Below, piece by piece: positions 3,113 through 37,612 of a stretch of 64,000 nucleotides of DNA. This stretch comes from Sistotremastrum niveocremeum HHB9708. Taxonomy: Eukaryota; Basidiomycota; Agaricomycetes; Sistotremastrales; Sistotremastraceae. Position 1 is the stretch's first letter. Each line of letters begins with the position of its first letter. The notes under the pieces were generated by a model, which was given only the letters and a program-made list of their open reading frames with translations, was not told the DNA's origin and did no database searches. The stretch spans positions 817,806-881,805 of the forward strand of contig KV419403.1 in the NCBI GenBank assembly GCA_001630475.1, written 5' to 3'. The position numbers and the translations under genes were made by a program.

Positions 3113-4018
3113 ATGTCTCTATCGACTCAATTCCCATTACTCGTTCCAATTCGTTTGTTGGGAGATAAAGGAAGTCTTAAGGTGTGGAAGCGTCTCGCAC
3201 CATATGCATGTTGATCACAAACTCAGACCATGAAACATCATACAGGAATCCTTACTTGGCGCTTACGTGTCAAAGCACTGTCGATACATCGATGGTTCTG
3301 GAGGGCAAAATCAGGTGCGTTCCGAACTATATGTATACCTCCAACCATGATCACTTAGACACCTTTGCAGCCAGTCCACCCGGATCATCTAGATACTCTC
3401 AAGGATCCCAAGGATTCTCCAGTTCAGATCATATTCCATGGGCGCGGTAGCGATTTCGTTACTTCGATCGTCTTGAGCAGGACTCCAGTATTCTCTTTCA
3501 TATCGCACGAGCTTGAAAGTAAGCATCACTAACCGCCTCGATACTGAAGGATTTCATTAATATGACTATTCTTATCAGCCGGGCCCATGAAGAAATTGTC
3601 ACCTTCTGTCATCATCATCTGCGTCAGCGTGAGATCGCGACCATCATTTCAAGAGATAAAGAGATCCTGGGGTCCGCCGTCGTCCAGGATTAAGCGTATC
3701 CGACGAGCCTGGGACAAGACCCCTATGGTCCTCGTTGGCACGGATATCGAATCACGAGCTGACCCTGAGATCGTGCATGGGCTGTTTATGAACGGCAACC
3801 ATGAGGGTCCGGTTCTTCACGAAGAAGGAGAGAGACTTGCGAGGGAAATCGGAGCCTCGAAGTATCTTGAGTGTTCACTTGGGGATAGAGGTCAAGTGAA
3901 ACAGGTTTTTGAAGAAGTACGTGATGGCATCGCGTCGGACAGTCATCACAAACTGACGCTTAATCGACAGGCATTCCGGCTCATTTCTACGAAGTGGTCC
4001 ACATGCTTCTTGCAATGA
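3113..4018 (+). CDS. Rho-like pseudo-GTPase A
   Basis: Five exons: 3113-3181, 3246-3314, 3371-3518, 3579-3916, 3971-4018; phases 0,0,1,0; about 223 residues. The order matches a Rho fold: strand 1 and P-loop remnant (IRLLGDKGSLK), helix 1 (ESLLGAYV), a G3-like segment (IIFHGRGSDF), strand 4 (SVIIICVSVRSRPSF), G4 region (VLVGTDIESRADPE) and the C-terminal half (EEGERLAREIGASKYLECS). Family knowledge: Rho proteins need GxxxxGK[ST], DxxG and TKxD. Here the P-loop keeps Gly and Lys but lacks the second Gly and the Ser/Thr, Asp57 is His, and TKLD reads TDIE. There is no CaaX box. Inferred to have lost normal GTP binding. It is the most isolated member, next to no other copy. Confidence 0.75.
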
Positions 4019-6503
4019 TTCGTTGAGTTGGGACTTATGGGATCGAGGCTCGCCTTTTGCGTACACGATAAATTATTGTATATCAGTATTCCTTTGAATT
4101 CGAAAGACTCATTCGGCTCATCCTAAAGAATTCGTTGGGGCGCATGTTTCAGGGTCTTATCGGATGTCAACATTGATACGACTGTCCTGTGTCGACTTTT
4201 GTCATACATGTAAGCCTGTATCTGTCGATATCGCTGGATCACACCGGAAGAAAGGACTACGAGAATCAAGCTAGCCACAGAAAAGGTAGTCGACAGGAAG
4301 GCTAGAACCATCAGGAATGAAGTAACGGCGCGATCGATAGGCAAGTTGCGCTATATCTCGGACTCAGGTAAAGGTGAAGGATGTACTTCTGGATCTACGG
4401 CCAGAAGCTATGCCACCACATGAGCCGCCTGGTGTCAAATTTCCTGTAAGGATAACGCACCTCAGGAATTTGCTTCCCCAAGTCTTCTCTTCGCCTTCGG
4501 ACGGCTTCCGAGTGCCGCTTCCGAGAACGCAGTAGAAATTATGACGCTAGGAGATGATACTGGATCGATGTTCGTCGTTCGAAGCTCTCAGTGTATACCT
4601 CTATTGACTCGGAAGGTCCTTCTTCCTTTACAGCTCGCTGCGTCTATAACCCCCACTGAGTCACCGGACCCGGCAATAACAAGCAGAATTGCCGTACGAG
4701 ACGCGTCGGCGGTGAGAGTCACGAGGAGGAGCATGGCTTTATGGATAGGGGAAGCTTCTTCCGTCGTTCGGCTCTTCGCGTCACGCGATAGCACGAGATC
4801 GCTCTCGATCAGACTGAAGGATGTCATCGAGTAATTCGGCATCGGCTCGGTTTCATCGCCAGTGATGGTTTGACAAGGTTCCGAAGAATCGAGGGAGAGT
4901 AAATCAAAGAACAAGGGTCGATTAGCAAGCAGATAGGAATTGAATGGAAGCCTGCAAGACGGCATAGGACGGGCGCCTGTGGAGGCAAGGTGAAATTCGG
5001 AGTGGCTGTGGGAGAAGATAGACTATCGAAAACAGAAGATAAGCGCAGGATAAATGACGGTAATCTCAATGATGGCTCACAGCTTCATCCTCCCCTCGAC
5101 ATGCGTCAACCCCATCCATCAACATTGACTTGGCTGCGAGCGACACAATGCGAGAGTCGTGGGAAGCAGACTCGTGATACTGTGCCAAATACGTTCAGTA
5201 AAGAGGTATATGGTGCGCGACCGAAATGTCGGAACATGGGATAGACCTACGCAGTATGCGACCCCTATCCTCTTCATTCCACCACCGTACAACAAGGATA
5301 CCGCATGGTAAAGCTCGCGGATCGATGATATACTACCAAGTAATGTAGCGGTGATGAAAAAGAGCCGGGTGAAGAGATATGGCAAGGGCGCAAAGATCAC
5401 ATTCTCGGGAGGTCGGCTGAGATGGCAGTCTTGAATCCAATGATTGCAACAGAGCGGCCGGGACAGGTTCTCATGATAGCAGACGAGTTGCGAAAGACGC
5501 GAGATCCTTCTTCTTGAATGAATCAGCCAAGGACTTGCGATGCATAAGAAGATAGCTCACCCTTTACGTGTCAGCCACCCTGCCCCGTTCTCATGAGTAT
5601 CCGATCTCCTAAGTTTGCTACATGGTTGGTTTGAGACGCTGGGTAGTCTTCTGACGCTTCTATATGGCCGTCGAAGCCCTTGTCTTGCAGGGACAATCCT
5701 TCATGCGAAGGTTGTCGCAGGTGTCGACGGTTGAAATATAAGCGGCTTCGACGCGTCGACGGCGGCATGCCTTGCAAGCGGATGTAGGGCTTTGGACAGT
5801 CAATATTGGACTTTGATGGGTTCTGAACCGTAACGTTCTATGTTCCACGGTTGAACGTTGAGTGAGCTAGTGTCAAATAATCGAGGCTTACCTTGCAACG
5901 AGCGAGACCGAATTGGATGGCACAGCTATCTGTACCACCCTTTATCTCTCCTAAACTCGATTGAGGGGATCACTTCATAATAAAAGCCACAAGATCATAG
6001 CGGAAATGAAAATGCTATAGCCTGTTCACTGCGAGGTCACGGTCAGCGCGATGCCTCACTCTGTAGCGAGTAAGGATGAACATACAGTACTCAGAGCTCA
6101 TACGTAAGTGAGTGGACGTTTCGATGCCTCCCATGGCTGATGTCTATCAGACACAGGTCGTTGAGTTCGTGGGTGAGCGCAGAGCTAGAGCGAGTAGTCT
6201 CGAGTAGAGCAGCGGACGTATCGGACATAAGAAAAATTCTTTGCTTCCACTGACTCGCCAACCTCAAGCTCGATGAAATCAAAGCACTATTCATAACAGA
6301 TGTATCGAAAACCAGCTCCTCGTACAGTGAACGGGGTCGTCGAGTGGGGTATAGAATATATGAATAAAGATTATGATCATATATGTAAGATTATTGAGCA
6401 CGTCGCACGGCCGCGCTCAAGCCCTCGTCGACTCAACCGCTATCACGATTACGATCGTCAATATCGGAAGACGCAGGATGTAGAAACGCAAATTCATACC
6501 TGC
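4019..6503. other. intergenic; possible broken membrane-protein gene on the minus strand
   Basis: On the minus strand, 4123-4344 encodes a hydrophobic helix (VTSFLMVLAFLSTTFSVASL) followed by a basic tail; 4588-4965 and 5119-5400 hold further hydrophobic stretches. I could not join them by consistent splice phases, so a decayed or badly modelled membrane-protein gene is possible but unproven. 5400-6500 shows nothing recognisable. Confidence 0.25.
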
Positions 6504-8181
6504 CTATATAATACCACTCCATATATCCGGGTCCGAGTCGTTATCACTTGACCCAGTAACATTACCGTCCTCGGCCTCATACATAGTCACCATGCGCGAT
6601 ACCTTCCGCAGAGTACTCTTCCTCAATTTGCGATCTTGAGGCTCCATTCGTTTTTCTTTCTTCCGATCGAGGGTCATCTTTAATTCTTCGAGATCATTGG
6701 CCCACTGCTTTCGGTCCGTCAACATCTTCTTCAAGCGAATATGATCAAATTGTGAGCCCTGTATATCGAGTGATCGAAGCTTAGGGCAAGGTCGGTTTTC
6801 GATAGAGGAGTCTTTGACCGCTCGAAGTGCCGTAATGGCACTGTCGGCGACGTATGCCCGAACGGTGAGTTTTTCCACATTTCGGAATACTTTGAAAAGA
6901 CTGTGCATGACGGCTGTAGTTGGAATAAATCTCGAATTGATGGTGGCATCAAGGAGTTTATCGAACATTATCGAAGTTAAATCTGCGAGAAGGGCGTTGC
7001 CCTGAGGATATATGACTTCGGCCCGGTCATTCGGTGTGAGCAAGAGGTGATCCCCTTCGTTGAATTGAAGGCGATAAGACGGTGAATCGGCAGTTTGGAA
7101 AAAGAGAAGGAAGGCCGGGAATGGGACGTACTCGTCCGTATGGACATCGATACGAAGAGTATGAGCTGAGCGAAGATTGTCCGCAACGAATCTCGGGAGA
7201 GACTCGAAAATCGAGTCATCCTCTCGTCTCGCAATCGAGAGGACGACGGACGAAGAGGAAGGGAAGCGGATCCTTCGCAAGATTTGGTCCGCAAATTGAT
7301 CCGAGCACCAGTGTATTTTGAAGTGCTTCAGATTCGGAAGACTTGTTGGGGGGTCATTCAATTTGGATGCGGCGACCTCGGCGTCGTCGTCTTCATCGCG
7401 TATGTATCGGCGATCACGATGATACAGAACAATATCCTCCAACATTTGAGCCGCACCTAGAAATCCAAGGATTTCAGATAATGTGAGATCTGAGCTGTTG
7501 ACAATGACATCAGTCAGGCGGTGCCAGCTCGGCCGGAAGGCTTTCAAAGATATGTTTCGGACGTTGATGTTGGAGAGCTCTGGGAAGTCAAGTGAGATGT
7601 CTGACCGCACGAATCCATTGAACCGCAGCTCGAGTTCCCTCAGCTTCGGTTTCGACATTTTCTTGGTCAAAAGCGAAAATACCCAAGATATCAAACCCGC
7701 CGGGGCACATTTATCTGTGTACCAGCCGTGACACCACTCGATACTGATCCGTTCCACGGTTTCCAGTGTGTCGGACAGAGTTAGCCCGAATGCCGGAAAT
7801 TCATCTGCGTTCCAGGCCCGTTCGTCGATGGCTATTGAGAGCGGCATCTGTCGACGACGGGCCATGTACATCAGGATCGTTGTCCGCGGCCAACGGAAGT
7901 GAATTTGAGACCAAAGGGTAGGGTGATCGAGTGCCACTCGTCTCCATTTCTTGCATCTAAATCAGGGTGAGATAAAAAGGGTCATGATTCTGCCCAGCCT
8001 CCTTTAACAGAAGGGAACGAACGTACATGGATGAGATAACGACGGCATCGAAAGGGAGAGGTTTCGGATTCCATATGATACTGATTTGACCAAGCGACTG
8101 AAGTTCCTCAGTGAACACGTAATCCCACATTATCATGCGTAGAACGTCTTCCGATAGCCGTTTGTTCACATCGTATGGCAT
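6504..8181 (-). CDS. F-box-like protein 1
   Basis: Two exons, 8181-8027 and 7956-6504, phase 2, 535 residues; the exon sum is a multiple of three. Exon 1 holds the first half of the F-box (LSEDVLRMIMWDYVF...ELQSL). The intron splits the box, and exon 2 resumes with CKKWRRVALDHPTLWSQIHF. The remaining 450 residues are leucine-rich with irregular repeats, the presumed substrate-binding part. The tail is basic then acidic (MYEAEDGN, SDNDSDPD). F-box proteins usually bridge Skp1 of an SCF ubiquitin ligase to a substrate; no substrate can be inferred. It is a tandem paralogue of the next gene on the same strand and appears intact. Confidence 0.8.
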
Positions 8182-8827
8182 GTCGTTCGATTGCGAGACG
8201 AATTACTGGATGAGAGGAGTTGTGACGTAAGAAAGTCTTGGAAGGGTATCCCAATGTTCTGATGCTTGATGACTCTTATCAAACTGGGTTTCAGAGCCTG
8301 CAGGGCTGAGCGTTGAAGCTAGGTAGGACAAGTACGCGTCGACGCGGTCTGTCGGAGACTCAAATGGATCGCGGTAACGTGATCATGACGTCAACCAAAA
8401 ACTCTGTTGCTTGCTCTATTGCGAATTGATTTGTAACTGGAACCTGGTGACTCTAGCTGTCTTCTCGAGTGAATTGTTCTGAGCTGTTGATAAGGATCGA
8501 GTATATTATATCGGTCAGGGAGAACAAAGGGAAAAGGACGGGCGGCATACTGTAACAGTACAGTGGGTACAAATTAACGAGCCTGGAAATATATCAGGCA
8601 AGCCTGACTCTGCAAGAAAGGGTAAAGATTGATTCGAGGATAAGGCACGTAACTTGACCGGATTTTAGAATTAAGACATTAAGTAAGTCAAGTACGTCCC
8701 AAGCACTTGGATAGGAAGGGCATCCGATTTCTTTTCTGCACTGTTAAACTGACGTGTATCATTACGGATCATGCCAATGAGTGGATGAGTCTTACTTACA
8801 TCATCATAATACTATCCCCACGACCTC
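8182..8827. other. intergenic between F-box genes 1 and 2
   Basis: No gene seen. It should contain the promoter of F-box gene 1 and the 3' end of F-box gene 2. Confidence 0.5.
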
Positions 8828-10496
8828 TCACAAGTCGGAATCACTGTCATTGGTGTCCCGCCATTCTCCCTCCTTGGCCTCGTAAAGAGTGACCAATCCA
8901 GCAACGCTTCGCAATGCTTTTCGCCTCACATTTCCTACGTTCTCTTCACAGCTTTCAAACATCCGAGGATCGATCGTGACCTGCAGGTGGCGTAGATCAG
9001 GGGCCCATTCTCGCCGGTTGATGAGTGTTTTCTTCAGGGTGACCGGATCAAAGCGACATTCGCGGAAATCTAGTTTCCGGAGAGCGGGGCAGGGGTGACG
9101 GTGATCGCTGTCTCCCGGGTCTGAAGCGAGAGCTTCTATGACATTTTCCGCTCTCTTGGCTCGAAAGGTGAGATTTTGAACGGTCTGGAACTCTCGGAAG
9201 AGCTTTCTCATTATTGAGGCATCCGAAGAGTATGCTGAATAGATGGAAACATCCACGAGGCAATGAAACGATTGTTGACCTAAGGAATCGAATATCTCGT
9301 CGGCTTGTTCTTGGCTGTAGCAATCCTGGATTTCGGAATCCATGTCGGAAAGTCCTCGAGGTTCATTGAATTTGATCTCGTAGGACGGAGAATCTATCGA
9401 GTTGAATGAGAAGGCGCAATCTGAACGCTCGGCCTCAATGTCAAGAACAACGACCGAGCGGAGAACGCCAAGAAGGTAGTTTGGAAACGTCTCGATGAAT
9501 CCTGCACCCTGCCTCCTGCAAATGCAAAATTCGACCAAAGAGGTGGAAGGGAAAGTGATGGCGCGGAGAATGCTCTCTGCGAGTGTGACTGGACACCATG
9601 CTATTTGGAACTTGTTCACCTTCGGGAGGAAGGTGGGAGACAGCTGCGTGTCCCCGGCAATGTCATCATATTCCTTGTCTTCGGGAACGTCTTCCTCCTC
9701 GTAGTGAACGAGCTCAATACTTTCTAGATTTTGAGCCGCCATCAAGAAGTCGATGACTTCTGAGTCGTCCAGATCATGGCTCCTCGCCTTGACACGTTCG
9801 AGACGTCCCCAGTTAGACTTGACAGCTCTGAGGGATACAGAGTTGAAGCGAATATCGGAGAGCTTCGGCAGATTAGGAGTCTTCTCCGCGTCTTCCGCAC
9901 GCTCGTAGAGATCACAGTGGAGTTGCCACAGTCTCGGAGCTGCAGTGTCCCCACTGTGAACTCGAGTGACCCAATCCAAAAAATCCGTGGTTTCTTTGCG
10001 AGAATTGTAATCCAGATATAGGGAGTTGCCACATTCGATACTGAGGCGCTCCACGCGGGATAACGAATTGAGTAAGGTTGGCTCGTGGATGGCGAAGTTC
10101 TTGGATGTAACAGAGTACGAGTTGATTCCGATAGACAGTATATGTGTCTTACAACGGCTCGTATACATCCGGATAGTGTCTGTCGGCCAGCTGAGGTGAA
10201 TCTGCGACCATATACGAGGATAGTTAAGAGCAACAGTTCGCCATCTTTGACATCTGTTCATAATGGTCAGCCTCCAATTAGAGAGAGGATTAACATGCGA
10301 ACATAGAGGAAACTAGGACTGCTTTGAACTGGCGACGTCTCCAAGATGGCCTATGCGCATCCCAGTTCGATCTATACGTAGGGATCTGAACGCGCACGAG
10401 CGATTGAAGATCGTCTTCAAATACGAACTCCCACATGACCATAGTGAGAAGATCGTCAGGCAAACGTTTTGTGAAGTCGGTCCGGAGTCTTTTCAT
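8828..10496 (-). CDS. F-box-like protein 2
   Basis: Exons 10496-10303 and 10253-8828, phase 2, 539 residues. Exon 1 carries RLPDDLLTMVMWEFVFEDDL; exon 2 opens with CQRWRTVALNYPRIWSQIHL. The leucine-rich body follows, and the end is acidic (LYEAKEGEW, NDSDSDL). The architecture matches the neighbouring F-box gene, and both share the segment CPxLRxLDxxxxxFDxxxLKK near residue 430. Start at 10496 is the first ATG and directly precedes the box. Probable SCF adaptor by family; substrate unknown. The frame is uninterrupted. Confidence 0.8.
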
Positions 10497-11074: not shown

Positions 11075-12170
11075 ATGCCTGAAATATCTTGGGATGACTT
11101 TGTGAATTACGTTGCGAGGGAAGGTCTATCTCAACCGGCCGCCATAGAGCTTGAAATCATCGGAAGTGAAAGTAGCCTGAATGTGCGTCTTCTATTCAAA
11201 AAATTCAGATTGATTCAAACCGCTCAGACTCACTGGCACAACGAAGTTCCGACAATCTTTGTGTACGCGTCTGGTGCAGAACGCGTTCAATTACAACAAA
11301 CCGCAGGAAGTCCTCGAGGATGGGGGCTCGGATCGTGTCAGCACCTTCACCCCATGGAACTCCTCATACATGGCTAAGCCGAACGTCATCTGCAGCCGCG
11401 GTCTATCAAGGCGATGCTTCACCGAGCTATCATCCGGAACCGGCATCCGATTCGGTTCCAGTTGTGGTGCTGTCCTCCTAAAGGTGTCATCAAATCTAGG
11501 AGAGGGAAAGCAGCGAAGTTAGAGTGTATTCCTCCTGAATTCGATTACTATCTTTCTTATGTTGGGGGTACGTATGACATATGGCATTGGCAATCATCAG
11601 TAACTCGACTAACTTACTCTAAAAGGCGGCGGCGAATACTCTCTCAGTCATTCAGCAATACTCTGTTTCAATGTGACATCCCGACTGTCGCTCGAAGCAG
11701 CCCAAGCTCAATGGGCAGAAGAGCGGCCAAGCACCCGTAGGCAAGGCCTCGGAGCTTCGGATCGCAATATATTACCTGTTGTGGTCGTTGGCTTTGGCAT
11801 CGAGTCGAGATCGGATCCCGAAATAATGCACCAAGCACTGACGAGCGATAATAATGACGGTCCGGTACTTCCAGAGGAAGGCGAACTTCTTGCGCGTAAA
11901 ATGGGAGCCAGTAAATATATCGAATGTTCGGGGGATGATCCGCAACAGCTCGATGGAGTATTGCGAGAGGTGTGCATGGATATTGATTCTGTATCAGATT
12001 GAAAGTTTAATTTCTCTTGCTTGATTTATTAGGCGATGCGTCTGGGTTGGAACCACCAGAGACGTCGATTTGAAGGATCTGCCATCGACCGTGCTCGAAG
12101 GCGATGCACTACAATGTGGTCTGTCTTTCGTTTGTTATGGTCTTGTGGTTGTGCTATTGCAAGGGCCTAG
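11075..12170 (+). CDS. Rho-like pseudo-GTPase B
   Basis: Exons 11075-11182, 11247-11336, 11396-11567, 11626-11969, 12033-12170; phases 0,0,1,0; about 283 residues. Visible in order: strand 1 and P-loop position (IELEIIGSESSLN, no Gly-Lys-Ser/Thr), helix 1 (SLCTRLVQNAF), the G3 position (IRFQLWCCPPKG, where Rho has W/F-DTAGQ-E), strand 4 (AILCFNVTSRLSLEAAQ), G4 (VVVVGFGIESRSDPE instead of VGTKLDLRxD), then EEGELLARKMGASKYIEC and AMRLGWN. The tail is basic and Arg-rich, without CaaX. All splice sites are GT-AG. The Rho scaffold is established by alignment; loss of nucleotide binding is inferred. Confidence 0.8.
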
Positions 12171-14028: not shown

Positions 14029-15107
14029 ATGAGCTCGAATTCGGTCGCACATCCTTTTTTTACAGAATCAGTGGACCCTTTTGCCATCCACATAGACAGC
14101 TCGGGACTGATTATATATGTTCCCGTGCATGTTATCCTGCTGGGCGCTGACGACTCAGAGGTTGGTACTTCTGGTCATTCGAAAGCTTTTCGCCTCACTG
14201 ATGTGAATGATAGTTCTTGACAGCGCTTCTCAAGGAATTCGCAAGGGGCGCCCACAATTACGATTCAGAGACCGAGATATTGGGGGGGAGTCACAGCTCG
14301 AATTTCCATGTGAGTGAACCTTCGAAGTCTTCATGGCCTCATCGAAACATGATTATTGTAGCCAATACCTCTCAGCAAACTCCTTTCAGACCAGGGACCA
14401 AATTCAGAGCTCCAAATCGATACCTACTGTGCTCCCCCTAGGGAATGCATAGAGGGACGATCATGGGGTCGCCCACCAAGAGTTCCAAGCGCCGCTCAAG
14501 CGAATTTCTACTATTGTCTCAACAAATCTCGCCAGTCCATTCCTTCTGAGCAAAGGGTCCCTCATTGACTTTTTTCCGTTTGTAGAACTTGAATTCAAGC
14601 ACATTCCGCCATTTTCGGTCCTCCTGCTTCATTTCAATGTCGCTTCTCGATCATCGTTTCGTGAGGCGCAAGAGATGTGGAAATCAAGGCGGCCCGAGCT
14701 CAAAGAGATTCTCAATTCAAAGATATTCATCATGCCCTCCATTGTACTCGTCGGTCATCACACGCAGTCGAGATCCGACTCTGAGATCATGCACAAAGCG
14801 TTCACGAACGGCCGCGGCGAAACAGGTCCTATTCTTCCAGAAGAAGGGGAACGCGCAGCACGAGAAATGGGAGCTGTGAAATATATGGAATGCGATACCG
14901 GGAATGCGGTGCACCTCAACTATATTATTCGAGAGGTATGCATTCTCTCCGAATAATCAACCGATCTCACTGACTGGAGGCTGACAGGTCTTGCGAATCG
15001 GATGGAATGATGTACAGGTTCAATTAGCTGGCTCATCGCTATATCGAACAGTGCATCGATATGCTTCGAGAAGGTCCGCCATTTCCTCCGGCATCCTTGA
15101 CGGATAA
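14029..15107 (+). CDS. Rho-like pseudo-GTPase C (one GC-AG intron)
   Basis: Exons 14029-14160, 14214-14309, 14362-14530, 14586-14935, 14988-15107; phases 0,0,1,0; about 288 residues. Landmarks: VHVILLGADDSE at the P-loop position, FLTALLKEFARGAH for helix 1, LQIDTYCAPPRECIE at G3, SVLLLHFNVASRSSF for strand 4, VLVGHHTQSRSDSE at G4, EEGERAAREMGAVKYMECD, then VLRIGWN. The third intron only keeps frame if its donor is GC (C/GCCAGT), giving a normal 55-nt intron and the same phase as the other copies. A GT donor in that place gives a stop. The gene may therefore splice through a GC donor or be newly impaired. Confidence 0.7.
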
Positions 15108-15580
15108 TTGAAGATCACCGTGTTGCACAACGACGGCGGATTTGGGCGGGACAAATGGAAGTGTATGATCAGTAAGAGACGATAAGATAGAATCTGTATC
15201 CTGGATATATGAAAAGCATTATCAGAAACCAAGCCCAGATGCGGTCATAATGCTTCCAACGATGCTTTCGGGGGATTGTCAATGGGAGGATCTGAGGACA
15301 GAGGGGGCATTCTCCGACGAAAACCACGAAAATTTCCAGTGCTGGAGCAGACTTATCTGCAATCTAGGATGTTTACAACAGATTTGACTCAAACACGACC
15401 GAAAGGAATCTGGACTGTCGAGAGATCGTCGGTACTCCAGAATCGAGCTGAATTGGCAGGGACTGGACCCAAGTAGATGATCATAGCGGCCCGAGTCTAC
15501 GTTCAAATTAGTATTAGAGAAAGACAAATTAGACACCTATGTGGGTTCTCGAGCAAAGCTCGTCGTTCACATCACAACCC
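15108..15580. other. convergent intergenic spacer
   Basis: This is the 3' flank of Rho-like gene C and of GNAT gene 1, which converge here. No gene seen. Confidence 0.5.
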
Positions 15581-16903
15581 TCATTGACAGGCGTCACCAG
15601 TTCCTCCAACACTACACCTCGTTGTCGACCACATCATCCCAATATCCAACTTTCCCTCCTTTCCAATCCCAGACGCAACACCAGCCTCCCTCACCATCTA
15701 CGATAAATACCACAATGTCATTCTCTATATCCACCGGATCCAGAGGCGCGAACTTACCACAGGACATATCACCTCCCCTTTCGTCCGATCCGGATCATCA
15801 GAACCCAACGTCAATTCTCCAACAGTAACGTATCCATGTAGGTTATAAAACGGGACATTATGGCGACTGGTAGAAAGCAGCCACGTGGCTCGTCCTTCAG
15901 CGTCAGCCTGTCATCGACGAACCGACCGTCAATATCAAGAAGGGTAATAGAAGGAGCAGGGAGCGTACGATCCGGAAAATGGCTTTCAATAATCGAGAAG
16001 CATATCCATGCCCTTGATACTCCGGATCCGTAGCGAGTAGATGAACGCAGTACATATCTTTCCCTCTCCCATCAAGCCAACTCTCTATCGCCGCTTTCTG
16101 TCCTTCAAGCTCTCTTCGTCTCTGGATCAATCCAATCAACTCATCAGCTCGATTACGTTAGCGAACAGAAGAGAGAACGTACGCGCTTGACGATCTCCCC
16201 GTCGAATTTGGCTAGGATCATCGCTATTCCGCCGAATATAAGATCGATGAACTTGTCTTTCCACCTTTCATTCTGCAGGAGGGCTGGAGGTGGGAAGGCG
16301 ATGATGAGGGAATGGGCGTTGTCGATTTGGAGGGATATACGACGGGTGATGAAGTACCAGAAATAGAAAATATATTTGAGCTTCGCGAAAGTAGTGGGAG
16401 GAGGAGGCGAATCGACACCCTATGATGCAGAAATATTAGCAATCAGAAGGAAAGTGATGCAAGAAAGAATGAGGGTCGAAAATATGACCGCTACGTTGCC
16501 AAGGAGAGCCAAAGATATTACGAAAAGATATGTGGGGATACGTACCGTTTGACCTGTCACATATCTCGTGAACGCGTCAAGTTTGAATGCTTCTAAGATC
16601 GTATCAACGGCGGTATTAATTTGTCCTATAATGCCAAGGGAAGAAGTCGATGCATGAGTGAGCATTACGTATCTTCACGTGAAGAGGAGGCATATCGCAC
16701 CGTAGCTCAGACTCTTGACAAGAAGATTGGGAGCCGCAAATTCGGCGGGTACTGTTTCTGGGGAGGTCATAGGGCTATTGCTATCGCAGTCCTGAGGTTG
16801 CAAGCTCAGCGGTTGAGTCATAAGGATAGGCATCAAGACATCTACTCACTGTGAAAGATTGCTGATCAGGCTTCAATGGAGAATTTGCTTCAATGCCATC
16901 CAT
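15581..16903 (-). CDS. GNAT N-acetyltransferase 1
   Basis: A seven-exon model starts at 16903 (MDGIEANSPLK) and ends at 15581-15583. A Ser/Thr-rich leader is followed by a basic aromatic segment (FWYFITRRISLQI), then the GNAT core: motif A strand and loop (VHLLATDPEYQGHGYAS, the Q-x-x-G-x-G/A acetyl-CoA loop), then ADAEGRATWLLSTSR and VPFYNLHGY of motif B. GNAT enzymes move an acetyl group from acetyl-CoA to an amine; the substrate is unknown. The frame is intact. It is the inverted near-copy of GNAT gene 2 (28561-29857) but has a longer C-terminus. Confidence 0.75.
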
Positions 16904-17650: not shown

Positions 17651-17702
17651 ACTCCTCCGAGCTTTCCCTTGCTTTCGAGTGCCTCCATGCAACGGGGTCC
17701 AA
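16904..17702. other. intergenic upstream of GNAT 1
   Basis: Most of this stretch belongs to the inverted duplication. Open frames on both strands here are antisense to each other and lack family resemblance. Confidence 0.5.
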
Positions 17703-20951: not shown

Positions 20952-21977
20952 ATGAGGTCAGTCTCGCGCTGGCGCCGTGAAAGACAAATTCCTTCACATC
21001 CGTATCCTCCGATCGAGTTCAGCATTGGTCTTCAGAACCTTGAATTGCCTGCAGCCGTCTCTTTGTCTATCAGGCTGCTTACTTTTGGTGATCTCTCATC
21101 CGTACGCCCAGGTTTGTGAAAGGATCTCATGTCATTCTGATAAATTTGGTAGCCTCGGAATGAGTTGTTCGCGGGACTGGACAGGGAAAGCTTTGGTGGG
21201 CATTATCGCGGGCTCAGGCCTTTGGTACGCATTCCTCACGACTCAATCCCAAAGACCTCATAATCCCCTATGTTTATTCCAGACAGTTGATGGCACAGAT
21301 AGAAACATTAAGTTCGATTTGTCGTGTTGTCCACGAAAGGAATGCGTAGAAACACGTTGGGGCAGACCGATGAGAGTACCAAGGAGTCAGGCGAGTTTCT
21401 ATTACTATACCATACACCGGCTCTGTAAGTTCATCTACCACGTTCGTATGAGTTTCCTAACGGAGAGTTACTCTTCACCAGTCGCTTTGAAAACCATCGT
21501 TGTGGTCTTAAACTTCAGCGTTATTTCTCGAACTTCCATTCAAGAGATGAAAGAGACCTGGGAAGATAGGTACTTTCATCTCACACAATTCTTCTCCTCG
21601 TCGGAACGTGCAAAGCCAATTCTTCTACTGGTTGGTTCTGAGACGCAATTGAGATCCGATCCTGAGATCATGCATAAAGCGTTATCAACCCCAGGAGAAG
21701 GCCCGATCCTCCCAGAAGAAGGAGAACGAGTAGCAAGAGAGATAGGGGCGGCTAGATATATGGAATGTGAAACGGGAAATGTTGATCACCTCAACGCGAT
21801 CCTTCAAGAGGTATTCCTTCTGCCATTTGCAAATGCTGAGTTGGATAACATCTTGACTGACAGACCATGCGACTCGGATGGAATCTCGCTCAAGATCGAA
21901 TGACAGACACTCTTATATACCGAGCTGAGAAGTGGTTGACTGCGAAATGGTCGACTTTCAAAGGCTCTGACCGCTAG
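20952..21977 (+). CDS. Rho-like pseudo-GTPase D
   Basis: Exons 20952-21101, 21153-21224, 21283-21424, 21482-21810, 21864-21977; phases 0,0,1,0; 268 residues. Strand 1 reads VSLSIRLLTFGDLSS, with no P-loop Lys. G3 position: IKFDLSCCPRKECVE. Strand 4: TIVVVLNFSVISRTS. G4: ILLLVGSETQLRSDPE, which aligns residue by residue with VGTQIDLRDDP of Cdc42-type proteins but lacks the Lys/Gln-x-Asp pair. Then PILPEEGERVAREIGAARY and MECETGN where Rho has ECSAL. It ends FKGSDR, no CaaX. Intron 3 is 57 nt and two introns contain no stop, so an unspliced frame also looks open. Nearest relative is gene F, in inverted position. Confidence 0.8.
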
Positions 21978-22580: not shown

Positions 22581-24647
22581 CTAATGCTCGATCTCCTGAT
22601 GCTTTAAAACCTCATCATTCGTCCTATGTCCCTTCCCAATAGCATTCTCACTCTCCTCATACTGATCCCTCTTATAGAAACACAGATAAAAGGCCATTCC
22701 TGCTAGGAACGATGCGATTGCGATGCCGGTGTAGTTGCCTACGAGCTTAGGATCTTCGGCAACAGGTCTACATAATAAAGTTTAGTGAAATTCGACGAAA
22801 GGGAGGGATGGGACGTACGAGAGGGCAGCGTTAATAGCATTACCGATGGCTGTCATGAACAAGAACACGCTCATGACGACACTCTTCATGCGCTTAGGAG
22901 CCTTGTTGTAGGCGTACTCAAGTCCGGTAATAGAAGCGAAGATCTCCGAGATGGCAATCAACACATACGGCGGAACCTGAATCCAAACCGACAACGACGA
23001 CGGAGTATCACAAGATGATACGAACGATCCACAAGGGTTCGTTTTGTAGATAAAGTGTTGGAGGACGGCGGAGTAGACCATTGCGAGTGCACCGAACATG
23101 AAGCCGAGCCAGATTCGGAAGATGGGGCGTGCGACGAAGCCCATACGTCTGAGGCCGGGGTAGACGAGGGTGTCCATGATGGGGATGAGGATGATGAGTG
23201 CGATTGGGTCGAAGTTTTGGATGAGGTCGTTGGGGGTTCCATTGAGCGTCATCGTTCCGGCCATCGAAACCAAATTGGTGGTGATTTGGTTGTATGAGAT
23301 CCAGTAAAGCTATGATTGACTGGTTAGATTTGAGAACGAAGGGAGGGGAGGGGAGACGTACGGGGTAGAAGAGGAAGATCTGACATGCGCGAGCGGTACG
23401 CTTGACTTCTTCGACGAAGGCATCATCCCATGTGATCCAGTGTTCTCGGCGGCTGTCAAGAGCGCGACCAACGATCTTCTCATCGGCAGCTCCGGAGCCT
23501 TGAATGGTTTTGTGGAAGTGAGGCTTCGCACGATTCCAAATGCCGGTCTCCTTAGTCTACGATCACAAAATATATAAGTCAAACGAAATGTGAAAGATTA
23601 GGGAGAACGTACCTCGCGAAGGAAACGGATGGGATGAGTCCAGAATCCACCCATGGCGATTCTCCAACATCTCCATACCTCCATTACGATGCTACCCTTA
23701 GGAGGTACCTTGTAGTACGCCTTTCGGCTTGCGATAAGCACGATAGGTGTACCGAGGAAGACGACGGTAGGGAGGAGGTAAGCCAACCAGAAACCGACAT
23801 GTCGTTCAGATTCGGTGGTGGCAATGGCGGAGAGTGAGCCGACGTTGATGCACCAGTAGAAGATGTTATAGATACGGGTGATAGTGACGTTAGGGTCGAC
23901 GATGACTCGTTCGCCTGAAGGGAGGGTACGGACGAACATCCTCGACTTGCGATACTGATCCGCAACGAGAGGAGAGACGTTTGCTTTGATACCACCCGTA
24001 CCGGTAGCGACGATGATGGCGCCGACGATCCATCCTGGGAATCCGGCACCAGCTCGGAGGGCCGAAGGAATGGAAGTGAGAGTGATGATGAGAAGGCCGA
24101 TGAAGTAAATGAAGCAGAAGACGGTGATGGTCTTATATCGGCCCCATTTCGAGTCAGCGATGATCGCACCGATAATGGGAGTGATGTAGGCCAAGAACGA
24201 GAACATGTTTTGGAGGCCTGTCGCCGTCGTCTGTGTTCGGCCTAGAGCACCGGCAGGGGCGGGTGAGCCTGGGGGAGGTGCGCCGGTGCCTGAACCACCG
24301 TCTGGAAGTGGGTTTTGGAGGTAGTTCTGGAAGGGGCCTGAGAGACCATAGTACGCAAATCGTTCGCAGAGTTCGACGATGACGACGGAGTATGCGGCGA
24401 TGGGAATTTTGTCGGCTATGCGACGGAGAGTACGTTGGTCTTCTTCGGTTGGCTCTTCGAGAGGGTTGCCATCCTCGTCGACGAAAGAGTCGGCGTCGAT
24501 GTCGGTCGATGAGGCCTCGTAAGTATTATGGTCGTGATCGTCTGATGAAAATTTTTTCTCAGAGGGGTAAACAGAAGTAGATTGGTCGTTAGAAGGCCTC
24601 AGAGCAGTGTCAGCATTGACGAGGTCAACTTCGCGAGCGGTGGCCAT
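22581..24647 (-). CDS. PTR2: PTR2-type proton-coupled di/tripeptide transporter
   Basis: Exons 24647-23613, 23556-23362, 23309-22819, 22767-22581; the sum gives 635 residues. POT/PTR2 proteins import di- and tripeptides with protons through 12 membrane helices at the plasma membrane. Seen: the family signature VVIVELCERFAYYGLSG near residue 95 (the ExxERFxYY element), the second signature IYNIFYWCINVGSLSAI, repeated hydrophobic helices and a hydrophilic N-terminal tail. I chose ATG 24647 (MATAREVDL) over upstream in-frame starts because the preceding 80 codons are not conserved-looking. The C-terminal tail ends VLKHQEIEH. This is the only obviously conserved metabolic gene in the window and sits at the centre of the inverted arrays. 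Confidence 0.92.
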
Positions 24648-26162
24648 GTTGACTAGCAGTAGCTCGTTCTCCTCGTCGTCAGACCTAGTCTTGGTACGGT
24701 GGGAGGGGAAGAGAGAAGTGGGGTTCTTGAGAAGACGATTGAGCATGATATATCCATTCCTTGCCTGAGCTTCTGTGCCCCTGTGTCGTCGACTAAGTGG
24801 AGGGCAGAACGCTTGGTCACTGTAAGAGCCAGAGTGCTCCACGCGATTCCTGTGATTCCCTTTCCGGATATGGCCGCCAAGCCGTTCCCGGTCGGCGCTC
24901 GGCAAGTCGTTTGAGCAAAGAGGGCGTGTTCTTCGTGCGACCTTTGCACTTGTCCATGCGGTGAGCTTTCATGCGTAATACGATGTGTTTCATTGGCTGA
25001 TTTGTTTCACTTTGAACGTTTCGAAATTTGAAGAAGACATCGATAATATACAAGCAGAGGCTTGGACGCACTCAGGAGAGCCGGATTGAAAGGAGTTATC
25101 GGTATCTTCTCCTCAATCGATCCAGAATTCGCTCCTTTCTTTCCCTGTTTCATCGCTGTCATCTCCTGAGCCCGACACTCTGCTCAATTATTTACTCCTG
25201 CCATCCCTCGGTTTCTCCATACCCGACGTAGCCGCTCCGATCCAATATCGGAAAGGAATATGCCGAACTCCGGAGCCGGAGCGGAAATTAGATCACCGAT
25301 CGCGATCGACTTACTCGATTAGATCGATCTGGCTTATCGCCGAGCCGCGGAGCGCATGGATAATCTTGATTCTGACCTTCTGCGTCATCCGTGTTGTCTC
25401 CAATTGCTCGTGTGAGATGATAAGCATATGGTCATTTTGACGTCGTGTGGATTTGGTTCCGTTCCATCTGAGGTCATTTCTAATCCACCTGCCCTGATCG
25501 TTCTGACTAAAAATATCTCAAAGACTCGCTTCGTCTCGTCTAATGTCTAATTGAAGTCTCACACGACCAACATTCAGCTCATTAACCAGCATCTCGTCGT
25601 TCGAGTACTGACAATGACATGTGATCATCTGTTGAGACAATGACACCTTATCTCGCTTCTTAGTACTTCTTGCCATTGATTATGCTCTGACCGAAACTGT
25701 CAATTAGGGCCCAGTATCTCGTTTCCGACCCACACCGTCAGGCGAACTCCTTATCAGACCTTGCGTCACACGAATTTACAACGTCTGGAACAGTGTCTTG
25801 GCATCAGTCTAGAGTAAGTCTTGAGACTTTCTTACCTTATTTGCTTCCGGGACCGAGTGGATCGGCTTAAGCGTACGATTACTGGTTTCGTCACAAAGAA
25901 TCTGGATAGTGAAATCTTGGAAATCCAGAAATCAGCAATTGCCGCTATCGTCAAGAAGGTCTTATTACTGGGAGTGCTTTACTAGAATTCATTGATGCGA
26001 GAGACGCACTTGCCAAGTTCCAGACCGAACTCAACCTCGGACGGCGTGAATACCGTTGAATTCTTTTCGAATCAGTATATCGAACACAACACAACCTATA
26101 AACGCAAATATCCCGTTTCTTCAACCCATTCATCCTCCAATGGATTCCATTCGCCCTGCTGG
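24648..26162. other. PTR2 promoter region and spacer
   Basis: Contains a perfect 12-base palindrome CGATCGCGATCG at 25297-25308 and several GATAA/TTATC words (for example near 25097, 25336 and 25416), compatible with GATA-factor nitrogen control but not specific. No gene recognised. Confidence 0.35.
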
Positions 26163-27205
26163 CTATAATACACACATCCTGTCTCGACCATAAGCCAAAC
26201 TCAACGCCTACGAAAACAAAATCAGTTTCTCAAAGTCCGTATTCCGAATGAAGAACTCCAGACCTCACAAATCACTGCATCAAGATGATCAGGATTCCCC
26301 TGCTCACATTCAATATACTTCTCATATCCATATTTCCCTGCGAATCGTTCTCCCTCTTCAGGAAGCACAGGCCCTGGCCCGTTCTTCTCGTTCTTCGGAT
26401 CGCTGGTACCAGTCATGAGTTCATGGACTAGTTCAGGTTGGGATCTTTGTTCAATTCCCCAGCCTGTTAGGATTGCGCTTATGGGATTTATCCACCAGCC
26501 CCTGGAGTGATATGTTTTGTGAATATCCTTTAACGAAGAGCGAGACATAACGTCGAAGCAAAACAGGGCGACAGAGTCACTATGCATCTGGGGACTAACT
26601 ATTAACGATCATGAGTGACTGAGTTGCAAGAGAGTTTTGGAGGATGGGACGCACGGTATACGTCATGGAAATAATAATGAAACGCTCGAAAGAACGTCCG
26701 ACTTTTCGGTTTATGCACCGAGACCCGACGTTCGAGTCTCGTTGTTCGTGATCGGATCTTTGAATTTGGCCAGCATGTGAACAGAAGGTCGACGACGAGA
26801 TTCGATCGAGTTATGAGTGTGCTCATGGTTGAGGGTACCCAGACGGACTGTGTCAACGTCGTTAAAAGGAATAAAAATTCAAACATTGAGGGGATGAGAA
26901 TTATACCTTCTTCTTTTTATCGACACGTTCTGCATGTTGCCAGACATACGGCTCAATATTCTCATTCGCATTATAAGCTCTCGCAATGATATGAGAAATG
27001 AAAAGCTCCTGTTTCAAAATCGTAAAAAAATCAAATTTATTACATAGATTGGATGCCATACCATTCGAGTCGGGGTACATCCGATAATCCGGATTCGTAG
27101 CTCCCGACGATCAGATCGAGGGATACGTGAGCGATCTAGGTGAGGTTTGAACTTTGATGGATAGGGATTGGCTCGTTCGAGGATTGACGTGACGGTTGGG
27201 TGCAT
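26163..27205 (-). CDS. Rho-like pseudo-GTPase E
   Basis: Exons 27205-27062, 27008-26907, 26847-26655, 26598-26264, 26207-26163; phases 0,0,1,0; 272 residues. Strand 1 and P-loop position: ELRIRIIGCTPTRM. Helix 1 and switch I position: ELFISHIIARAYNANENIEP, comparable to LISYTTNxFPxEYVP of Rho. G3 position: LLFTCWPNSK. Strand 4: SVALFCFDVMSRSSL. G4: AILTGWGIEQRSQPE. Then EEGERFAGKYGYEKYIECE. The last exon is very short (ALSLAYGRDRMCVL), so the C-terminus is truncated relative to the others; it has Cys at third from the end but not a CaaX arrangement. All catalytic motif residues are missing. It is the most divergent copy. Confidence 0.75.
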
Positions 27206-28560: not shown

Positions 28561-29857
28561 ATGGCATCCGCCACGACAGGCGAAACCGACGTCTCTTATC
28601 TCAATGATGCCTCCGAGTCTTCACCTTCTCCGCCTCGTCCTCAACCCCTGATGGTGCGCCTGCCATGGGTCTCTGCATACCGTCCTGAGTCCTGACCGCA
28701 CAACCTCAGAATCCCGATGTCAATACCTCACTAGACGCATCTACGACCTCCACAGAAACATCGGCCACCGAACTCGCGTCCCCTAATATTCTTGTCAAAA
28801 AGCTGAGCTATCGTACGATATACCTCCTCTTTATGCGAAGACACGTAATTCTCACTCATGCCTCGACTTCTTCCCTTGGCGTTATAGGACAAATTAATAT
28901 CGCCGTTAATACAATTTTGGAAGCGTTCAAGTTCGATGCGTTCACGAGATATGTAACGGGACAGACTGTACGTGTCGCCAAGTTTCTTCTCGATCATTGG
29001 CAGTGCTTGGCAGTGCTTGTCGTTATATGTCTCACCCTTATTCTTTTGCGCATCGCTTTTTCGTCTGATCACTCATGTATCTGCATGATAGGGTATTGAT
29101 CCGCCTCCTCCCCCTTCCACATTCGCAAAACTCAAGTACGCATTTTACTTCTGGTACTTCCTCACTCGTCGCATATCCCTCCAAATCGACGACGCCCATT
29201 CCCTCATCATCGCCTTTCCACCTCCATCCCTCGTCCAAAACGGAAGCTGGAAAGACAAATTCATCGATATCGTATTCGGCGGGATGGCGATGATCCTAGC
29301 CAAATTCGACGGAGAAGTGGTAAATCGAGTATGTCATGCCGTTGCCTGTCGGTGATTGAACCGTGCTGAGACGATGTTGGAACTCTTAGAGACGAAGAGA
29401 GCTGGAAGGACAGAAAGCGGCGATAGAGAGTTGGCTTGACGGGAGAGGAAAAGATATGTATTGCGTTCATCTGCTTGCTACGGATCCAGCGTATCAAGGG
29501 CTCGGATACGCTTCGAGATTACTAGACGCTATCGCACGGATCGTACGCTCGTTCCTCCATACATCCCTCTTCGTAATTATTGACAATCGGTGTGGAAATG
29601 ATAGGCTGATACGGAAGGACGATCGACGTGGCTTCTTTCTACTGGTCGACATAATGCTCCGTTTTATGAGTTACATGGATATGTCACTGTTGGAGAGTTG
29701 AGGTTGGGCGGTGAGGATCCGGATTGGATGGGAGAGGAGGTGATATGTCCTGTGGTACGTTTGTCTGCCCCTAATTTTGGGTGCATGGACTGACTGTTCT
29801 GCGATAAAGATGGTGAGAGACGCTCGTTGTGCGTCTGAGATTGAGAAGGCGGAATGA
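27835..29857. repeat. right arm of the 2-kb inverted duplication
   Basis: Inverted relative to 15581-17650. It ends on the left where the other arm reaches the 3' end of the G-domain gene, which was not copied. Confidence 0.8.
28561..29857 (+). CDS. GNAT N-acetyltransferase 2
   Basis: Start ATG 28561 (MASATTGETDV); stop TGA 29855-29857; seven exons, about 290 residues. Exon 1 ends at a donor after 28653. The Ser/Thr-rich leader is followed by TILEAFKFDAFTRY, then FYFWYFLTRRISLQI, the acetyl-CoA loop VHLLATDPAYQGLGYAS, STWLLSTGRHN and APFYELHGY. The third intron is long (about 125 nt) and contains a direct 10-base duplication GGCAGTGCTT. Motif A has Leu where the other copies have His or Gln (QGLGYA), which still fits the QxxGxG/A pattern. 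Intact; substrate unknown. Confidence 0.75.
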
Positions 29858-30199
29858 TAGGGCGCTGAGGTTGAGGTGATGTTTGTTCATAGTGAGGTGT
29901 AGTGTCGGGGGAACTGGGTGATGCATGTCAATGAGAGTTATGATGTGACCGATGATCATGTGCTTCATACGAGAACTCTCGCTCACCCAGCTCTTGAATT
30001 CGTCTTTCTTTGAAGTCGAATAGGTATCTATCCGTATTGCCCCGATTTCAAACGCAATGTTGTCCCACCGTCAGAATTTTTTCACTCGTCTTCGTTCGAT
30101 GTAGGCTTCTTCCTTGTAGAAAGCTCACAATCAAATATATCAGAAACTTGACGGACTTTTGCAGGATTACGTATACAGCATAGCGGGAGACAACGTTTC
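29858..30199. other. convergent spacer
   Basis: 3' flanks of GNAT 2 and Rho-like gene F. No gene seen. Confidence 0.5.
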
Positions 30200-31242
30200 C
30201 TAGCGATCAGAACCTTTGAAGGACGACCATTTCGAACTCAACCACTTCTCAGCACGAAATATAAAAGTGTCTGTCATTCGTTCCTGAGTGCGATTCCATC
30301 CGAGTCGCATGGCCTAGGAAACAAGAATCACTGAATCATAGTCCTAGCAGCTAATGATGATGATAGACCACATACCTCTCGAAGCACTGCGTACAGGTGA
30401 TCAGGATTGCCCGTCTCACATTCCATATATTTCGCAGCCCCCATTTCTCTTGCTACTCGCTCTCCTTCTTCTGGGAGAATTGGGCCTCCTCCTGGGGTCG
30501 AAAACATTTGATGCATTGTCTCTGGATCTGATCTTGATTGCGTCTGATAGCCAACAAGTAGAAGGACTGATTTTGGATATTCACTCTCAAAAGCCATGGC
30601 GCGTTGTTTGGGTTTAGAGAACACTGTTTGCGAGGCCTCCCGCACCTCTTGAAAGGAAGCTCGAGAGACGACGCTGAAATAAAGGATCACAACTGAGACG
30701 GCTATGTTCATAGCCTCTGGTGAAGAGTTAATTTCCATGAGAAACTCTGACAACCGCGATAGATGAACTTACCGTTGTCTCTCCTGTCACAGTAATAGAA
30801 ACTCGCCTGACTGCTTGGAACTCTCATTGGTCTGCCCCATCTTGATTCTATGAATTCCTTCTGTGGACAACACCACAAATCGAACTTAACTAGCCTATGT
30901 ATGCCATCAAATAACTGGAATAACCATACGGGATTGTGAGATCCTTGGGATTGAGTCGTGAGGCATGCGTACCTCGGCACTTTCAGGATCGTCCGAATGG
31001 CCATGATAGGCGTTCCTTTCCAATTCCTCGAGCAAATCCATCCAGAACTACCAATTTTATAAGATTGACATGAGCTCCTCTCACGAACCTGGGCGTACGT
31101 ATGGGAAATCACCCAATTCAGGCAGCCTGATAGATAAAGGGACGGTTGCAGGCAATTCAAGAGTTTGAAGACCAATGTTGAACTCGATCGGAGGAGGCGG
31201 ATGTGAAGAGTTTTGTCCTTCAGGTTGCGAGCCCGAGCTCAT
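30200..31242 (-). CDS. Rho-like pseudo-GTPase F
   Basis: Exons 31242-31099, 31047-30973, 30914-30773, 30716-30376, 30313-30200; phases 0,0,1,0; 271 residues. Leader MSSGSQPEGQNSSHPPPP. Strand 1: VPLSIRLPELGDFPY, no P-loop. Helix 1: FWMDLLEELERNAYHG. G3 position: VKFDLWCCPQKEFIE. Strand 4: SVVILYFSVVSRASFQEV, very close to Rho. G4: LLVGYQTQSRSDPE. Then GPILPEEGERVAREMGAAKY and MECETGN. It ends FKGSDR exactly like gene D. It is the inverted sister of D, with conserved promoter sequence and intron positions, but the coding differences are spread over the gene, so the duplication is not brand new. Confidence 0.8.
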
Positions 31243-34483: not shown

Positions 34484-34883
34484 TCACTTGGAAATACAAG
34501 AATAAACCATGCACGCTCGGTATCTGGCCATCTGGCAAACTTCGGTCTCCAATCGTCCATGAGAACTTATTTGAAACCGAGTATTGATTCCCCCTCACTC
34601 TTATGCCACGTTGAATATAAAATGGCCTTGGCTCCTGGGCATAGGAGAGGGTGATATGATGATATGACGTCAGGGTCACAGGCCAAAATATTCAGTCTCC
34701 GACCCGCAAGACATCCGGAATTGGCGCTTTCCCCGTCGCCGAGCAGTCTCCTCTGTCGCACCGTGACCTCATCGTTGTTTCAGCTGACCCGCTCTTCATC
34801 TTGACGACCCCTACTTGTCTTCCCAAAGTCATCTTCTGAGCTTAAAAGAGCCGTCGAGCTTCAAACTCTGAAGGAACCGAGTC
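34484..34883. other. spacer upstream of the F-box-less gene
   Basis: I searched for the missing F-box exon (a CKRWR-type motif and LWSQIH) and did not find it on the plus strand. Confidence 0.5.
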
Positions 34884-36026: not shown

Positions 36027-36478
36027 GGGAGCGATGAGCAGGCGACGAAGATAATTATCGATAATTTATAGCTTGTTTCTTCTAAGTACTATTCACAACT
36101 ATAGAAGCTCCGCATGATCGAGATGATAGACGGCATCCGTCGAACTCAGCTCCCCCATCGATGTCTCCAAGCCCCCGTGATTGTTATTCACATTCATATA
36201 TGAACACTCCAACGGTCAAGACATCTTACTTTGCGGGCTTATAGTATCAACCAACGCAGTCAGAAAAGGCATTGTGATGGTTGATGATATATTGACCGAA
36301 GACAGCTGAAATTTTATTACATGTAGAGGGTATTGACACAGGTTCGAGTCCGACTATTTCGCTCGGTACGTCCGTAAGCGAAGGATAATCCGTTGCGCCC
36401 AAAAATGATTCTACAGGAGTCGTGAGACCATGCAGATGGTTCGTTCATCCGAGGCAGTCATGACTATAGAACATCGCA
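36027..36478. other. convergent spacer
   Basis: 3' flanks of the F-box-less gene and Rho-like gene G. No tRNA fold accompanies the B-box-like word near 36342. Confidence 0.5.
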
Positions 36479-37612
36479 TCAGCCGTCCACGGAACTGTTG
36501 TGCAAAAACTTCACGGTCCCAGTCGGATGCGTTGGACCAGACGAAAACTCGGTTAGGGGCCAACAGTTCTGATCGAACCATTCTTCGAAATTTGCTTGCC
36601 AGATTTCTTGGCTTATGTGGAGATTGTAGTTCATCTTCAAGGCCTGAGGGACCGGACATTAACTCGCGAGGAGATATCTGCTGTCAAATGCGCACGTACC
36701 TCTTGAAATACTACGTCAATAGCATCTTCATCCGTACTCGAGCATTCCATATATTTCTCCGCATGTATCTTGCGTGCGAGTCTTTCGCCTTCTTCGGGGA
36801 GAACCGGACCCTTGCAATCGCCGGTCGAGAATAGCTGATGGACGACTTCCGGATCAGATCGTAGCTGGGTACCCAAACCGACGAGCAAGATCGGAGCCGC
36901 CGAATATTTTCGGCTGCGTGACAGAGACGAGATTTTCGGAATCAGTCGATGCCACCAGTTGTGACTGTATCTCTTGACTTCGTTGAATGACGAGCGGGAT
37001 GTCACACTGAAACAGAGGATGATGACGGCGGGATACGGAGTGGATACAAGAGATTTGAATGGACGGACTGAAGTAGGTTGAGGAATTCGTCACGTGATCG
37101 AAGCTGACAAGGGCGCACCACCGAAGCTGACGTTGTACAGAAAATAGTGGAGCAGTGGAACGCCAGTGATTATTGGACTGCGAACCCGATCACCGGGATC
37201 AATCGAGCCCTTGGATGGACAGCAGAAGACTCGTATGTTGAACAGATTATGTCGCCAGACGTCTACTGGATCGATTCTTCGGCCGTCAAGATCATGCTTG
37301 AGATATGAGATTATATGAACAAAGGTTGCGCTAACTCAGGTTGAAGATGGGCGCACCTCATCCGAATCGGTGTGTCTGAGCCATGCTTCCTCGTGATTGA
37401 TAGCTTTGGATAGGCAATGCGTAAGAAGAGCTTCCTGATCATGAGGCATTGCGTTTAATCATTGATGTTTGTCCTTCAACCTGATAGCAGAAACGTACCT
37501 TCCGACTTTCTCCGCTCCCGATCAGCTGCATTTGCAACGTTCGACAATCGGCCCTATCCAACCCGAGACTGTCAAAATGCTGTAGCATCTGCTTCAGTTG
37601 CATGGGTTTCAT
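36479..37612 (-). CDS. Rho-like pseudo-GTPase G
   Basis: Exons 37612-37499, 37434-37357, 37296-37122, 37067-36700, 36643-36479; phases 0,0,1,0; 299 residues. Strand 1 and P-loop: LQMQLIGSGESRK, which keeps Gly and the Lys but not the second Gly or the Ser/Thr (next residue Glu). Helix 1: EALLTHCLSKAI. G3 position: NIRVFCCPSKGS. Strand 4: AVIILCFSVTSRSSFNEV. G4: ILLVGLGTQLRSDPE. Then GPVLPEEGERLARKIHAEKY, MECSS and ALKMNYN. The C-terminus is the longest of the family. The frame is also open for 11 codons upstream of the chosen ATG (VAPEILAPPSI), so the true start could be further out. Confidence 0.8.

Follow-up and report, generated by a model that had tools for sequence, protein, structure and literature searches.

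Seven Rho-like genes of Sistotremastrum niveocremeum belong to a clustered, probably CDC42-derived family of putative pseudoGTPases

A total of seven Rho-like genes, labelled c1 to c7, were modelled in a 64,000-nucleotide stretch of the Sistotremastrum niveocremeum HHB9708 genome (the window; positions 817806-881805 of contig KV419403.1, here called C10). They lie where an original prediction, made from the DNA letters without database searches, had placed a cluster of intact Rho-like genes that have lost the motifs for binding guanosine triphosphate (GTP). The genome searched comprises 34.7 Mb in 111 contigs. The gene models were obtained with a spliced-alignment script and then corrected by hand; each contains five exons, and all seven final models are in frame with a terminal stop only.

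c1, 3113..4018, plus strand: exons 3113-3181, 3246-3314, 3359-3518, 3579-3916, 3971-4018; 227 residues
c2, 11075..12170, plus strand: exons 11075-11182, 11247-11336, 11396-11567, 11626-11969, 12033-12170; 283 residues, without a CaaX box
c3, 14029..15107, plus strand: exons 14029-14160, 14214-14309, 14362-14556, 14600-14935, 14988-15107; 292 residues
c4, 20952..21977, plus strand: exons 20952-21101, 21153-21224, 21283-21424, 21482-21810, 21864-21977; 268 residues
c5, 26163..27205, minus strand: exons 27205-27062, 27008-26907, 26847-26655, 26598-26264, 26207-26163; 272 residues
c6, 30200..31242, minus strand: exons 31242-31099, 31047-30973, 30914-30773, 30716-30376, 30313-30200; 271 residues, nearest copy c4
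c7, 36479..37612, minus strand: exons 37612-37499, 37434-37357, 37296-37119, 37067-36700, 36643-36479; 300 residues

The minus-strand position of c5, c6 and c7 and the fourth intron of c1 were not part of the original prediction. The good splice sites that it described were found at most introns, with the exception of intron 3 of c3, which is considered below.

The expected Ras match was obtained for two of the seven spliced proteins when these were searched singly against Pfam (c7, E 6.1e-9; c1, E 6.2e-9, run on an earlier 245-residue model without intron 4), whereas four fell below the cut-off (c2, E 0.00036; c3, E 0.0011, run on an earlier model; c4, E 0.0011; c6, E 0.0064) and c5 alone gave no Ras match. 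Exon 4 of c5 was matched by a c6 query and by the family profile, of which c5 is itself a source sequence. This seven-sequence profile, in which c1 and c3 were represented by earlier models, aligned to a Cdc42 profile in hhalign at 99.8% (E 5e-28, 106 columns), and the top matches of a PDB profile search were Cdc42 chains (E ~1e-21). The matched part runs from beta4 to alpha5, that is the C-terminal half only, and includes the Rho insert helix between G4 and G5, which could be aligned in all fourteen C10 members counted below. The AlphaFold model of a half-domain protein from Sistotremastrum suecicum, P0127, has a predicted local distance difference test score of 84.5, forms helices 54-57 and 60-68 in the insert region and matches Rac/Rho structures (E 5e-8); this match and the sequence match are not independent of each other, because 13 of the 21 rows in the alignment behind the model are Cdc42 or Cdc42-like. 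Profile and structure searches both return a Ras-superfamily match to Rho, and the GTPase fold is modelled for the C-terminal half, being Rho-like there.

For the N-terminal half, the link to CDC42 comes from gene structure and not from profile score. In the CDC42 gene of the same genome (C1:368 kb, L050) the introns lie after GDGAVGK, after YVPT, inside DTA/G and after FDE (a slash marks an intron), with phases 0,0,1,0. The same phases occur in six of the seven window copies, c3 differing at its weak intron 3 only, and Rac and Rho1 of this genome, as modelled automatically, have other intron layouts. The window genes therefore point to duplicates of CDC42. Judging by sequence comparison, the seven genes are members of the Rho/Cdc42 family by descent, the evidence for the Rho/Cdc42 scaffold coming from profile and structure in the C-terminal half and from intron positions in the N-terminal half. 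The family has in common with CDC42 its intron phases and layout and the beta4-alpha5 half with the Rho insert helix and the KYxEC and PExGER blocks. It differs in the lost nucleotide motifs, a longer exon 3, the substitutions P87R, D127H and R135G and, in six of the seven window copies, the loss of the CaaX box. Switch II was ruled out as the site of the common CCPxK motif, which lies well upstream of the exon 3 end. With intron 3 (phase 1, DTA/G in CDC42) as an anchor placing it before that end, CCPxK is more likely to belong to an enlarged loop between beta2 and beta3.

A pattern scan of the final models found GK[ST], DTAG, [NTC][KQ]xD and [CS]SA nowhere in any of the seven proteins, and the full P-loop GxxxxGK[ST] was likewise absent from all of them. 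The G4 tetrapeptides of c1 to c7 are TDIE, FGIE, HHTQ, SETQ, WGIE, YQTQ and LGTQ, in which the aligned aspartate is replaced by glutamate (c1, c2 and c5) or by glutamine (c3, c4, c6 and c7), and the G5 pairs are, in the same order, SL, SG, DT, ET, EQ, ET and SS. The predicted loss thus applies to every full motif but not to every residue, as the P-loop lysine is retained in c1 (GDKGSLK/E, intron 1 following directly) and c7 (GSGESRK/E, before intron 1) and the G5 serine in c1, c2 and c7. A CaaX-like C-terminus was found in one window copy (c1, CFLQ) and in the C10 copy at 674 kb (CVLQ). From these losses the family proteins are predicted to be unable to bind GTP or to cycle. The retained lysine and serine would suit atypical GTPases of the Rnd or RGK types that still bind nucleotide, a description that might apply at least to c1 and c7. 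In both of these DTAG is gone, as are the Ser/Thr of the P-loop, the aspartate of G4 and the alanine of G5, whereas Rnd and RGK proteins retain more of the G motifs, and we regard nucleotide binding as unlikely. Rnd and RGK proteins are themselves placed in the class table of pseudoGTPases in PMC5593906.

Protein searches of the whole genome (21 matches each) recovered the seven window copies and eight further loci on C10, at 619, 674, 679, 684, 685, 697, 699 and 701 kb. The counts from these searches are lower bounds, and the family thus occupies at least fifteen loci on C10. Automatic models of this second cluster are unreliable upstream, and both the trees and the fourteen-member counts use exon 4 only; the 679 kb copy was left out of these counts because its exon 4 is interrupted. 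In the exon-4 tree the fourteen C10 members with an intact exon stand apart from thirteen other Rho-like sequences with 99% support. Of the ways in which the two clusters might have arisen separately, the one in which the window copies join CDC42 and the second cluster stands apart was rejected by the approximately unbiased test (p 4e-7). None of the five joinings of the family with Cdc42-like genes that were tried was rejected by the same test, among them CDC42 (p 0.20), the C19 genes (~0.2) and C7:329k (0.43). The second cluster, the origin from CDC42 to which the introns point, the related genes on other contigs and an S. suecicum orthologue all go beyond the original prediction, whose claim of a multicopy pseudo-Rho family clustered at one locus is upheld by the profile and structure searches together with the selection tests given below.

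Six other Cdc42-like genes were found, none of them on C10 and most with some motif lost (C19:237k, C19:239k, C1:381k, C1:382k, C7:329k and C30:406k). C19:237k/239k and C1:381k/382k are two sets of neighbours in which the motifs are partly lost; the C1 genes lie ~12 and ~13 kb from CDC42. The models of C19:237k, C19:239k and C1:381k have the phases 0,0,1,0 of the C10 family, and motif loss is likewise common to several of these genes. C1:382k differs from the family layout at the fourth intron, and the models of C7:329k and C30:406k depart from the CDC42 layout and are unreliable upstream. C19:237k has R87, S121 and L138 in common with the C10 family but, unlike it, has retained TQID at G4 together with a CaaX-like end; such an end is also present in C1:381k. 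The S. suecicum orthologue of C19:237k, P0007, has LSTTAGQE in place of DTAGQE, and the two proteins are identical at 174 of 184 positions, a five-residue model artefact being excluded, which points to a close relationship between the two species.

Other features of the window were also recorded.

15560-16772 and 28741-29955: two inverted copies of a GNAT acetyltransferase-like gene, 76.5% identity, beside c3 and c6
22782-24968, minus strand: exons of a POT/PTR2 peptide transporter, within the cluster
6504-7961, minus strand: long open frame, weak leucine-rich repeat (LRR) and F-box matches below the Pfam cut-off
8828-10312, minus strand: long open frame, no Pfam match
43202-43508: patch of overlapping direct self-matches, ~80% identical
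47081-57425, plus strand: run of long open frames of 527, 270, 410, 133, 547, 499 and 508 residues, without Pfam matches at E 0.01
57812-59254, minus strand: long open frame, weak LRR match below the Pfam cut-off

Pfam Acetyltransf_1 exceeded its cut-off on one 58-residue piece of the GNAT-like duplicate. As this inverted duplicate stands beside c3 and c6, the cluster may have grown partly by segmental duplication.

Substitutions were counted at three positions. D127H is shared by all fourteen C10 members and is absent from the thirteen other sequences of the alignment, two of which are gapped there; P87R also occurs in all fourteen and R135G in thirteen. The majority of the conserved positions, both old and new, is found in the insert helix and its surroundings.

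Outside this genome, a c1 query matched one protein, P0127, the S. suecicum orthologue of c1, which is identical to c1 exons 4-5 at 119 of 125 positions and spans the predicted exon 4-5 junction. A search with the family alignment found six proteins: a c6-derived fragment, three Cdc42-like proteins whose P-loop is altered (two of them named from Rhizophagus irregularis), a Rac of an aphid and a weakly matching fish protein with a Ras domain. The family is likely to be lineage-restricted on the evidence of these word-based searches. A pattern screen of 127 proteins flagged ten in which one or more GTP motifs are unusual. Three of them, P0001, P0007 and P0127, come from the genus Sistotremastrum; some of the other seven may be incomplete or mispredicted. 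P0002, P0003, P0004, P0010 and P0022 are Cdc42/Rac-like proteins of other genera without a regular P-loop by pattern, the Rhizophagus P0002 having GDGNAEKT. Databases may contain more degenerate Rho copies than has been assumed; alternatively, some of the models may be wrong.

The public model of P0127 starts with MKKLSPS in exon 4, which would agree with a true product consisting of the C-terminal half alone, translated from an ATG in exon 4 with the upstream exons unused. The restriction of the profile similarity to that half fits as well. The upstream exons of the copies at 697 and 685 kb speak against it. Their exons 1-3 were compared over hand-read pieces of 60 codons in total, picked where both copies align. 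The degenerate P-loop exon (exon 1) has a ratio of nonsynonymous to synonymous substitution rates (dN/dS) of 0.07 (dN 0.09, dS 1.36, 19 codons) and exon 3 one of 0.12 (20 codons); exon 2 is saturated, the proportions of synonymous and nonsynonymous differences (pS and pN) being 0.90 and 0.25. Together with the upstream CDC42 phases kept in six of seven copies, these values make a half-length product improbable in our estimation.

Purifying selection acts on exon 4, where neutrality was rejected by a codon model. Leaving omega and kappa free, instead of fixing omega at 1 and kappa at 2, improved the log-likelihood by 46 for the seven window copies, by 106 for eight sequences (seven members of the second-cluster type and c1) and by 136 for fourteen sequences. 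Among close, unsaturated pairs exon 4 dN/dS ranges from 0.08 (697k/685k) through 0.27 (c3/c6 and c7/c1) and 0.28 (c3/c4) to 0.46 on trimmed columns or 0.56 over the whole exon (c4/c6). The description of the genes as maintained and not decaying is therefore upheld by exon 4 and by the 697k/685k pair, exons 1 and 2 of c4/c6 being the exception, and sequence comparison supports a family maintained by purifying selection with that same exception. The overall dN/dS of c4/c6 is 0.68. Its exon 2 is alike at 39 of 72 positions (54%) against 97 of 109 in introns 1 and 2 (88% and 90%; Fisher p 1.7e-7), a contrast that is weakened by introns 3 and 4, which are 79% and 51% alike. This pattern, seen in one pair only, is compatible with diversification of the former nucleotide pocket, with patchy gene conversion or with a relaxation of constraint.

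Several results weigh against a maintained, CDC42-derived family. The dS is beyond correction in eight of the fifteen closest pairs, and the median pN/pS on exon 4 is 0.52 over all 91 pairs. The profile match is limited to exons 4-5, exons 1-3 being tied in through intron positions and reading frames, and the best exon-4 tree does not place CDC42 as the nearest neighbour of the family. R87 is not unique to it, being present as well in C1:382k, in C19:237k and in the S. suecicum orthologue of the latter. In c4/c6, dN/dS is 1.18 in exon 1 and 0.97 in exon 2 (against neutral, Fisher p 0.73), intron 3 of c3 (43 nucleotides) has the poor splice pair gtccct..aag, and exon 4 of the 679 kb copy (L029) is split by ~770 nucleotides, making it an apparent pseudogene. 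The last three would be expected if the genes were CDC42 duplicates on the way to becoming pseudogenes, with frames still open through recent origin. Decay of this kind appears very improbable to us, given the rejection of omega 1 and the low dN/dS of close pairs on exon 4, the fixation of His127 in all fourteen members and the near identity with the S. suecicum half.

Taken as a whole, these genes are probably best explained as part of a one-contig family of duplicates of CDC42, or of a close CDC42-like gene, that turned into pseudoGTPases; that they constitute a maintained pseudoGTPase family is highly probable. We count as established by computation the relation to the CDC42 group, the motif loss, the selection that keeps the changed form, the fixed insert-helix histidine and the nearly unchanged S. 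suecicum half. Under this explanation CDC42 or a close CDC42-like gene would have duplicated repeatedly, with the copies becoming pseudoGTPases. Lacking a GTP cycle, the proteins would act as constitutive binding modules, and probably the best reading is that of class (i) pseudoGTPases, CDC42-derived and binding independently of nucleotide. Since most of the conserved positions lie in and around the insert helix, a partner of that face is our best guess: the alpha3/insert-helix/alpha4 side might hold, or compete for, partners that touch this side of Cdc42, a mechanism that we put forward tentatively. Members with a CaaX-like end (c1 and the 674 kb copy) may be prenylated and would be membrane-acting, whereas members that lack such an end would act in the cytosol. 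A more speculative and doubtful extension would see the cluster as a recognition family that is made from pseudo-Cdc42 and diversifies fast, with a fixed docking half (insert helix, R87/H127) and a variable half comprising the old nucleotide pocket and the switches. If it were true, the proteins could be decoys or sensors of agents that attack or modify Rho proteins, or could take part in mycelial self/non-self recognition.

The original prediction had regarded such a family as not described, a statement that is too broad as it stands. PseudoGTPases without nucleotide binding are a recognised class, of which relatively few were known when it was named (PMC5593906). Class (i), as given there, includes pG1/pG2 of p190RhoGAP, CENP-M and the fungal dynein light intermediate chain. 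The p190RhoGAP examples sit as domains within a larger protein and the dynein chain belongs to a motor, whereas the C10 family consists of separate, clustered genes duplicated from CDC42. Motif loss during Ras GTPase expansion is described for Laccaria bicolor (Rajashekar et al. 2009, as related in the review PMC8146680), which has the most Rho GTPases among the fungi analysed in that review. Like the C10 family, the L. bicolor Ras set combines a mushroom-forming fungus, young duplicates and lost motifs; the passages on it in the review do not describe a clustered family without all GTP motifs. No clustered Rho pseudoGTPase family was found among the matches listed from the open-access literature (titles and abstract openings). 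PseudoGTPases are thus already known, and a clustered multigene family derived from CDC42 appears to be new.

A switch protein was apparently copied many times here and rebuilt without its switch, and graded intermediates (CDC42, the C19 and C1 types and the C10 family) occur in one genome. This opens to experiment the question of how a Rho scaffold functions in the absence of nucleotide, and on which Cdc42 surface that function resides.

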